Of a DNA stretch of 64,000 nt, positions 61,511-64,000 are shown piece by piece (position 1 is the first letter of the stretch; each line of letters starts with the position of its first letter). Under the pieces are notes generated by a model. The model ran no database searches and was not told the origin of the DNA. It saw only the letters and a program-made list of their open reading frames with translations. A program made the translations under genes and the position numbers. Source of the stretch: Ferrimonas futtsuensis DSM 18154 (GTDB taxonomy: Bacteria > Pseudomonadota > Gammaproteobacteria > Enterobacterales > Shewanellaceae); assembly GCF_000422645.1 (NCBI RefSeq), contig NZ_AUGL01000002.1, positions 1-64,000 on the forward strand, in the 5' to 3' direction.

Positions 61511-61540
61511 CAAGAGGACTCATTGAGTCCTCTTTTTTTT
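61511..61540. terminator. Terminator after uraA
   Basis: AAGAGGACTC-ATT-GAGTCCTCTTTTTTTT lies at convergent gene ends; its T-tract serves the plus strand. Confidence 0.85.
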
Positions 61541-61988
61541 ATCCGGCCTTGCCTTCGGCCTCATTCTTCCTGGCATCGGCCAGTTTGGTGTTGGCCTGAT
61601 TGAGCTCGGCGGTGATGTTCATGATCTCATTGCGCTTGGCGTCCAGCAGTTTCTGCTTGGCCTCGGGGTCCATCTCCTTGCCCTTGATCTCCTGCAACTG
61701 CTCCTTGGCCTGCTCCAAACGCTCCTTGATCAGCTTGATGGCCTGTTTGATTCGCTCGATGGCGGGGGATTCCTTCTTCTCCGCCTCCTTGCTCTCTCCC
61801 GTGGTGGCCTGCTCGCCAGCCAGTTTTTGCCTGGCCTCCTGGGAGATGTTGACGGTGATGCGGTTCTCTTTCGGGCTGGAGACGTTGTCCTTGGGAGCGG
61901 TGGTGCCGGCGTCGGTGGCGGGCAGGACTTCCCGGCCCTGGGAGGTGGCCAGGGTGATGTTGCTGCCCTGATGTTGAGAGATCTGCAT
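61539..61988 (-). CDS. Small coiled-coil protein of unknown function
   Basis: A 149-residue hydrophilic protein, chosen to start at the ATG at 61988 because AGGAG lies just upstream; the longer frame from 62033 has no site. Residues 1-65 are low in structure (MQISQHQGSNITLATSQGRE). Residues 66-140 form one long charged helix rich in Glu, Lys and Gln (IKERLEQAKEQLQEIKGKEM) likely to coil. I do not recognise a family with confidence; FlxA-like proteins have a similar layout. It is 1.3 kb from a flagellin gene and convergent with uraA. Confidence 0.65.
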   Translation of the reverse strand: MQISQHQGSNITLATSQGREVLPATDAGTTAPKDNVSSPKENRITVNISQEARQKLAGEQATTGESKEAEKKESPAIERIKQAIKLIKERLEQAKEQLQEIKGKEMDPEAKQKLLDAKRNEIMNITAELNQANTKLADARKNEAEGKAG

Positions 61989-62110
61989 GGAGAGCTCCTG
62001 TTGGCGGTCTGATAGTGGGTGTATCGGCAGCATATAGAATCACTTGAGAGTGATTCCGGGAGATAACGCAAATAAATCAGTAAGTAAAAGTAAGCATTCT
62101 TAGGGGGGAG

Positions 62111-62147: not shown

Positions 62148-62885
62148 TTAATTGGGGCACTTCAAATATTGAATGTAGTAATTGAGATGGCGGATATCCA
62201 CCAGGGAGACCAGGGCGTCCAGATCCTCGATGGCTAAAGTCCCGTATCTCTTTCTAATCATCTCCTGGCCAATCAACTCTTTTATGACCGAGATGCAATA
62301 TTGTTTGGTGACACCGGAAAAACTGGCGATGTCGTCATATTTTAACGGCGCACTGCGAAATTCAATTTCGTGGCCATAAAGAAAGATGATCACCAGGCAC
62401 ATAATAATGTGCTGCTTTTTATCCAGCAGGCTGCTCATCACCGACCAGTCGCGGGTGGCGGCGTTGCTGATCTCGTAACGCCGCAGGCAGAACTCAAACA
62501 GGGCTTCTGACTTGCTGGCCAGTTTGTGCAGACAGTTTCCTGGAACGGCTCTGATCACCGTGGAGTCCAGGGCCACATAGCTTTTGTTGAGCCAGGGGTT
62601 GTTGCCGTTGGGAGCATGACTGGTGAGCAGGGTCTTGGGCAGCCAGATGCCCGTCACTTTGCTCAATTCAGCCGGATAGTCCACCACCTCTTTGAGCACC
62701 CCTCTCTCTACGTAATTGAGGGCCGCCTCCTGAAAGCTGGGCAGGAAGCAGTCTCCTTTTCTTAGCTCTATTAAACCGCTGTGATTCAGGATTTCGGACG
62801 CGAGGAGGGAGTCGAGGCCGTTTCTTATCAGGAGATCCGTCAGGGAGTCCGGCGGTGGGGACCACGAAAAGCTGGGGTTCTTCAT
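62148..62885 (-). CDS. Crp/Fnr-type transcriptional regulator, divergent
   Basis: A 245-residue protein with the size and order of Crp-family regulators. An N-terminal beta-roll-like region (LIELRKGDCFLPSFQEAALNYVERG near 38) lacks the standard cAMP-binding PGE..GE motif. A dimer helix (SNAATRDWSVMSSLLDKKQHI near 138) and a C-terminal winged helix (YDDIASFSGVTKQYCISVIKEL near 182; IRKRYGTLAIEDLDALV near 208) follow. It has no Fnr-like Cys cluster, so its ligand is unknown. The ATG at 62885 is tentative; a TTG at 62921 is also in frame. It faces away from the flagellin gene across 426 bases. Confidence 0.7.
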   Translation of the reverse strand: MKNPSFSWSPPPDSLTDLLIRNGLDSLLASEILNHSGLIELRKGDCFLPSFQEAALNYVERGVLKEVVDYPAELSKVTGIWLPKTLLTSHAPNGNNPWLNKSYVALDSTVIRAVPGNCLHKLASKSEALFEFCLRRYEISNAATRDWSVMSSLLDKKQHIIMCLVIIFLYGHEIEFRSAPLKYDDIASFSGVTKQYCISVIKELIGQEMIRKRYGTLAIEDLDALVSLVDIRHLNYYIQYLKCPN

Positions 62886-63158
62886 CGATGTTGTCTGCTC
62901 AACCTTGATTATTTTCTGCAACCCCAGGGCGCTACAACCGGGTCACAATGTCAATTATTGTCGTCAAAGTCTTCACGTGAAGTGTCGTGGGAATCGAAAG
63001 GATCCCATCGAAGCCACTCTTTTTGAGGCTTTCTTAAACAGAGTGGAACCTTAAAGGGACGTGGGTAAAAAAAATGTAAACGTTCACTTCGTGGCGGGTG
63101 GTCAATAAGTACTTCTACCATGGTCCGAAATCGAGGGTATCACATCCGCTCGTGTTTG

Positions 63159-63245: not shown

Positions 63246-63272
63246 TAAAGTCACTATTGAGTGCGCCGATAC
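63246..63272 (+). promoter_or_regulatory. Sigma-28 (FliA) promoter of the flagellin gene
   Basis: TAAAGTCA at 63246-63253 and GCCGATAC at 63265-63272 with 11 bases between match the sigma-28 consensus (TAAAGTTT, N11, GCCGATAA). The start codon lies 40 bases further on. Confidence 0.88.
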
Positions 63273-63311: not shown

Positions 63312-64000
63312 GTGCGAATAGCCACCAATACGACATCGATGTTCACCAGCCAGTTGCTGCAGCGCAGTAGCAGTGGCGTGGCAGCGTCGATGGAGAGGAT
63401 GTCGTCTGGGCTGAGGATTAATTCGGCCAAGGATGACGCTGCCGGGTTGCAGATCACCAACAGGCTAACGTCCCAAATTAACGGATTGAATGTCGCCATC
63501 AAGAATGCATCTGACGCCATCTCTATGGCGCAAACTGCAGAGGGTGCCGTTCAGGAGGTGACCGAATCTCTGTTTCGAATCCGCGACCTGAGTCTGCAGG
63601 CTGCCAATGGTTCAAACAGTGATGAGGACAGGCAGGCGCTCCAGAAAGAGGCGGCAGCGCTGCTGGAGGAGATTGACCGCACCAATACCACCACCTCTTT
63701 TGGTGGCAATAGGTTATTCAAGGAAACCGACGCTTCCCGGGTAGACCCCATCGAGAGGGAGATTGTCAGTAAGCTTGCCAACAGCTGGCTGAAAGAGTCT
63801 GAGGAGTTGATTAAGGACAAGCTGGGAATTGATGGCAAGAACACCACGCTGAAGATCGACCTCGAACACATGGACGGTCCCGGCGGAACGGCGGCAAGTG
63901 TCTCCTCTCTGGTGGCGGGCAGTACCGCCTACAATCAGGTGATGACCATTGACCTGGATGACTTCGGTGCTGGGGCAGGAGGTGGCAGCCTGGAACTGGA
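63312..64000 (+). CDS. Flagellin, 5' part, with putative flagellinolysin peptidase insert (cut by window edge)
   Basis: The open frame from a GTG at 63312 (AAGGGGG just upstream) runs to the window end, about 229 residues. Residues 1-145 are a standard flagellin D0/D1 N-terminus: [57 protein letters not shown] and [20 protein letters not shown]. From about residue 148 the sequence changes to [20 protein letters not shown], then [14 protein letters not shown] and [12 protein letters not shown]. This resembles the start of the gluzincin domain inserted in flagellinolysins, the proteolytic flagellins. Any HExxH zinc motif would lie beyond the window, so peptidase activity is a hypothesis. Its sigma-28 promoter suggests late flagellar expression. 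Confidence 0.85.

Follow-up and report, generated by a model that had tools for sequence, protein, structure and literature searches.

Judged from its sequence, the gene that runs off the end of the first 64,000 nucleotides of contig NZ_AUGL01000002.1 of Ferrimonas futtsuensis DSM 18154 (assembly GCF_000422645.1; this whole stretch is called the window here) encodes a flagellinolysin, a flagellin with a zinc metallopeptidase in its middle. Flagellinolysins have been known since 2017, Gammaproteobacteria included, and the protein described here is a further example. The text of Eckhard et al. 2017 gives 86 such flagellins from 74 species, with Firmicutes, Beta- and Gammaproteobacteria as the commonest groups, and for FliA(H) of Clostridium haemolyticum it reports demonstrated activity and presence of the protein in filaments (PMC5595980). 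According to the text of Eckhard et al. 2020, the activity of the Hylemonella gracilis protein depends on zinc and calcium, and an inactivated flagellinolysin of Pseudoalteromonas tunicata served as a substrate (PMC7643111). Neither Ferrimonas nor Colwellia is named in the main texts of these two papers. In PMC12153261 and PMC7821379, the term 'proteolytic flagellin' occurs in the reference lists only.

No stop codon interrupts the reading frame between its GTG and the window edge, and when followed into the adjoining part of the host genome it encodes 598 residues (Table 1). The 229-residue fragment within the window matched Pfam Flagellin_N with 132.6 bits (cut-off 26.6), and in the full protein Flagellin_N (residues 3-139) and Flagellin_C (residues 513-598) each scored above the Pfam cut-off. 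The NCBIfam flagellinolysin equivalog model NF033876 matched residues 110-530 with 288.9 bits (cut-off 205), and the match covered the entire profile. Because the gene is cut by the window edge, the fragment's own match to this model (residues 110-219, 99.3 bits, E 3.2e-28) was, as expected, under the whole-protein cut-off. These results bear out a preliminary description of the window, which had recognized a normal flagellin N-terminal domain to about residue 145, followed by segments (among them MTIDLDDFG) that we found in the translation as quoted, and had proposed a possible gammaproteobacterial flagellinolysin with a GTG start. It had also suggested looking beyond the window for an HExxH motif followed by a Glu and for the C-terminal D1/D0 part of a flagellin, and comparing the insert with flagellinolysins by profile search; the motif with its Glu, the C-terminal part and a profile match were all found.

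Table 1. Features of the flagellinolysin gene within the window.
Feature	Position in window	Strand	Remark
Sigma-28 (FliA)-type promoter match, TAAA-N15-GCCGATAC	63246..63272	+	66 bases before the GTG
First 229 of 598 flagellinolysin residues	63312..64000	+	Gene continues past the window and ends at contig position 65108
Flagellin N-terminal D0/D1 part, residues 3-139	63318..63728	+	Pfam Flagellin_N
First portion of the peptidase part, which begins near residue 146	63747..64000	+	HEMVH, Glu258 and the C-terminal flagellin part outside the window
DLDD, residues 214-217	63951..63962	+	Putative calcium-site aspartate, from Asp conservation and Asp206 of FliA(H)

The HEMVH motif (residues 235-239, contig positions 64014-64028) starts 14 bases past the window edge and is followed by WFKEGSAE (residues 255-262), in which E258-G259-S260-A261 constitutes an EGxA motif. 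Residues H235, E236, H239, E258, G259, A261 and E262 were invariant in 39 of 39 aligned full-length relatives, which is partly a matter of choice because all rows of this alignment (A1) were picked for having the motif. A1 holds 39 of 40 references, with L195 omitted for its broken frame, and is also without L197 and L202 (identical to others) and without L190, L191, L155, L158 and the G265 protein; a further alignment (A2) holds 33 rows, with L154, L023, L193, L201, L203 and L207 omitted. Because the text on FliA(H) gives a layout of His233, Glu234, His237, Glu262 and Ala265 (PMC5595980), Glu258 and Ala261 are likely the counterparts of the third ligand and of the basement residue, respectively. 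The same text reports Asp206 as a calcium ligand, and its counterpart probably lies within DLDD, where it would be Asp214 (kept in 34 of the 39 rows) or Asp217 (32 of 39).

Strong purifying selection acts on the peptidase part. Ratios of nonsynonymous to synonymous substitution rates (dN/dS, Nei-Gojobori) for two species pairs were 0.036 and 0.039 (dS 0.82 and 0.71), and the other parts gave 0.019 and 0.058 (N-terminal), 0.024 and 0.025 (C-terminal) and 0.043 and 0.113 (linker). A chance HExxH in an ordinary flagellin is ruled out by this selection together with the NF033876 score and the alignment of the catalytic residues.

A gluzincin fold of the peptidase domain, as expected for a flagellinolysin, is putative here. 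The full-length structural model had a flagellin fold with a well-modelled peptidase region, and the structure comparison of this model matched flagellins, with no peptidase among the matches listed. When folded alone from a single sequence, the peptidase part gave an unusable model, with a predicted local distance difference test (pLDDT) score of 38.8. A phmmer search with this part against PDB sequences returned nothing at E 1, and a profile search of PDB sequences gave unrelated matches together with weak ones to M1 peptidases and collagenases. There is a distant likeness to Peptidase M9, the bacterial collagenase catalytic domain, around HExxH and the downstream Glu, and 30 of 33 flagellinolysin peptidase parts matched the M9 model with E values no worse than 0.1, the best being 1.5e-6. 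A different protein of the host (C22, L140:5497-7257) is clearly of the M9 collagenase type (269.2 bits), and frames similar to it occur in five other Ferrimonas loci (L015-L019).

The preliminary description had also credited the gene with its own sigma-28 promoter, and the match upstream of the GTG carries 11 of 12 consensus letters. Scores of at least 11 were reached by 14 of 3800 letter-shuffled upstream stretches and scores of at least 10 by 194 of 3800, all from single-letter shuffles. Among the relatives, taken from 19 hand-picked loci of which several are closely related, 17 of 19 promoters scored 11 or 12 and 18 of 19 scored at least 10; L149 scored only 9. Identical promoter elements stand 105 bases before the start of the host polar flagellin gene, and the promoter of the host lateral-like flagellin gene scored 10. 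The host has one polar-type flagellar cluster with FliC and another that was read by eye as lateral from its genes. The N-terminal part of the flagellinolysin has 61% identity with the polar flagellin and 42% with the lateral-like one, so of the two filaments the polar one would be its likelier home. Polar FliC (C19:41199-42659) shares the D0/D1 ends and the promoter elements with the flagellinolysin, but its middle contains Flagellin_IN motifs and no Pfam peptidase match.

From the domain order, the invariant catalytic residues, the flagellin fold of the model, the promoter match and the purifying selection, we infer that the flagellinolysin is very probably made under the flagellar sigma factor, exported, assembled in the polar filament and active there in cutting proteins. 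After transcription by that factor, the protein would leave the cell via the flagellar type III machine and would join the polar filament as a minor subunit, with its D0/D1 helices in the core and its peptidase facing outward. Zinc would be bound by His235, His239 and Glu258, with Glu236 as the residue that activates water, and the cleft would be steadied by a nearby calcium site. The filament would then cut proteins or peptides near the cell, and the use would most likely be feeding on proteins or loosening matrix.

Several points weigh against this account. In Ferrimonas the gene stands apart from the flagellar clusters, a position that the text of PMC7643111 likewise gives for the H. gracilis gene. 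The presence of a lateral-like flagellar cluster in the host makes the recipient filament uncertain, and both the enzyme activity and the filament presence of the window protein are predictions. The Pfam peptidase models stayed below their cut-offs in the window protein's peptidase part (Peptidase_MA_2, 21.1 of 32.4; Peptidase_M9, PF01752, 15.9 vs 26 bits). An outer-membrane sheath, if present, would hide the enzyme.

A flagellinolysin by descent might instead act mainly as a secreted protease, either exported and released or relieved of its peptidase head by clipping. Both release routes are raised in the text of PMC7643111, which also describes self-cleavage of a recombinant domain, and genome G265 carries a peptidase relative without detectable flagellin ends. 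We nevertheless consider this improbable, as both flagellin ends of the window protein are complete and conserved about as well as the peptidase, and the C. haemolyticum protein was present in filaments (PMC5595980). To the idea of a dead or vestigial peptidase, with the gene being no more than a structural flagellin variant, we give scarcely any credence: the catalytic residues are intact and, in rows picked for the motif, invariant, and the dN/dS values of the peptidase part are low, although its activity is predicted from sequence only, some relatives are broken (the interrupted gene of G1133, the frames of L191 and L195, the short frame of L066) and G008 probably lost the gene.

A recent origin in Ferrimonas, with a peptidase inserted into the genus's own polar flagellin, would agree with how closely the N-terminal part resembles the polar flagellin (61% identity) and with the last 20 residues, which are nearly alike in the two proteins. 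The core tree gives no support to such an insertion: the five Ferrimonas flagellinolysins formed a clade of their own (100), separate from the 22 rows of Ferrimonas polar flagellins (99). This tree was built by a quick method, contains several long branches and holds 94 of 192 candidate rows, with at most six ordinary flagellins per genus outside Ferrimonas and near-copies dropped; support is weak (63) for its branch uniting the Ferrimonas cores with the Colwellia-type ones. In the peptidase tree, the Ferrimonas flagellinolysins joined the Colwellia-type ones with support of 100/100, and we regard a recent insertion as very unlikely.

The peptidase tree of 39 rows also delimits a subfamily. 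The 20 rows with an extra segment of at least 15 residues formed a single clade (100/100) even though the segment itself was excluded from the tree. This segment lies between the peptidase and the C-terminal core and is mostly acidic; in the window protein it includes SGDDDNDGGDF (residues about 431-441), and its DDD run is not universal among the 20 rows. FliA(H), HgrFlaMP of H. gracilis and PtuFlaMP of P. tunicata have in common with the window protein the flagellin ends around an HExxH/EGxA peptidase. We regard the extra-segment subfamily, a well-conserved marine branch that includes Ferrimonas, as a somewhat new part of a known family. That the Ferrimonas-Colwellia branch represents a distinct two-part flagellinolysin, with the segment (about residues 431-460) working as a hinge or docking element that responds to calcium, is a tentative and rather doubtful proposal. 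In Colwellia locus L022, the gene is part of a flagellar cluster, where its neighbours encode a FleQ-like regulator, FliS and a protein weakly matching FliT, and L028 resembles this arrangement as judged from its reading frames.

Because L196 groups with L198 and L207 (98/97), the extra-segment label needs two changes in the core tree. These three loci from one genus (g569) encode flagellinolysins with related ends and peptidases of different clades, and next in each locus comes a flagellin of about 270 residues. L196 stands apart from L198 and L207 in the peptidase tree, so a peptidase exchange within a flagellin is possible, and because the core identity is only 55-61%, the exchange stays a lead.

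Some relatives depart from the usual layout. Genome G265 has a flagellinolysin-type peptidase of 391 residues without detectable flagellin ends (L148:7608-8783), alongside five other Flagellin_N matches, and this stand-alone peptidase appears either to have separated from the flagellum or never to have been part of it. When it was used as a query, 24 of 246 genomes matched, and 19 of the 20 loci returned had a flagellin N-terminal part, with L190 lacking a C-terminal match and L191 and L195 having their ends in separate frames. A stand-alone peptidase as a common form was rejected, G265 being the one case among the 20 loci. G572 carries a 1094-residue flagellin frame (L155:514-3795) whose flagellinolysin-type peptidase is flanked by long additional stretches, and in G1133 (L158) the gene is interrupted on either side of the peptidase by genes that look by eye like insertion-sequence genes. 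In Pseudoalteromonas sp. NBT06-2 (L066:7977 onward), a 269-residue frame with a Ferrimonas-like flagellin N-terminal part and HEMVH ends shortly past that motif.

Carriers were counted as genomes above the NF033876 cut-off, with the window's own genome included each time. They made up 5 of the 14 genomes searched in the genus and 5 of 152 in the family, all of them Ferrimonas (0 of 138 family members outside the genus), and 10 of 394, 7 of 369 and 6 of 398 in the samples of the order, class and phylum, respectively; none of 14 control genomes scored above the cut-off. A protein search of genome contigs returned 80 loci, 9 of which had a peptidase match at E 1e-5 and many of the others ordinary flagellins. 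The motif filter caught 7 of these 9 and missed L066 and L067; neither of these two loci is included in a tree. Spread by plasmids was rejected, as a tblastn search of 72,556 plasmid records with the peptidase part matched only 3, all from Bacillus velezensis and at 27% identity.

In four of the carriers (G000, G012, G005 and G009), the gene is flanked by uraA on one side and a DUF2066 gene on the other, and in G001 it is near a contig edge with different downstream genes. The nine non-carriers have uraA and the DUF2066 gene adjacent, with a spacing of 2 and 4 kilobases in two of them; in the remaining seven it does not exceed about 320 bases. In a tree of three neighbouring proteins (midpoint root; uraA missing for one genome), the five carriers and the closely related non-carrier G008 formed one clade (100/100), within which G008 grouped with G000 and G012 (97/99); presence and absence of the flagellinolysin need two changes of state on this tree. 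G008 has a short slot with a decayed piece of a coiled neighbour gene. Because of its place in the clade and this decayed piece, the simplest account is that the flagellinolysin was probably gained in the common ancestor of the carriers and lost in G008.

The coiled neighbour, a coiled-looking protein of 164 residues (window 61539-62033, minus strand) for which NCBIfam gave no match and Pfam none above cut-off, adjoins the flagellinolysin in G000, G012 and G005, is in pieces in G009 and G008 and lies on another contig in G001. With a decayed piece in a non-carrier and a copy on another contig, it was rejected as an obligate partner. A divergent Crp-like protein (window 62148-62921, minus strand; PF13545, 24.9 bits, cut-off 27) is a weak candidate for a dedicated regulator, as it is present at the slot only in G000 and G012 (2 of 5 carriers); other matches in the genus are at most 30% identical. 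Downstream, a protein with a PKD match and a YHELAH motif (L006:7277-9199, minus strand; contig 67277-69199) was found at 10 of 15 loci compared; of the other five loci, four (L108, L112, L113 and L136) are themselves short or located elsewhere, and L145 has none.

In a group of marine bacteria, then, a predicted proteolytic flagellin is under strong selection, and it has a flagellar promoter though it stands apart from the flagellar genes. The benefit of a flagellar protease was left open by both published enzyme studies. The culturable carriers Ferrimonas sediminum and F. aestuarii would make direct tests of that benefit possible, and the extra-segment branch offers a natural comparison.
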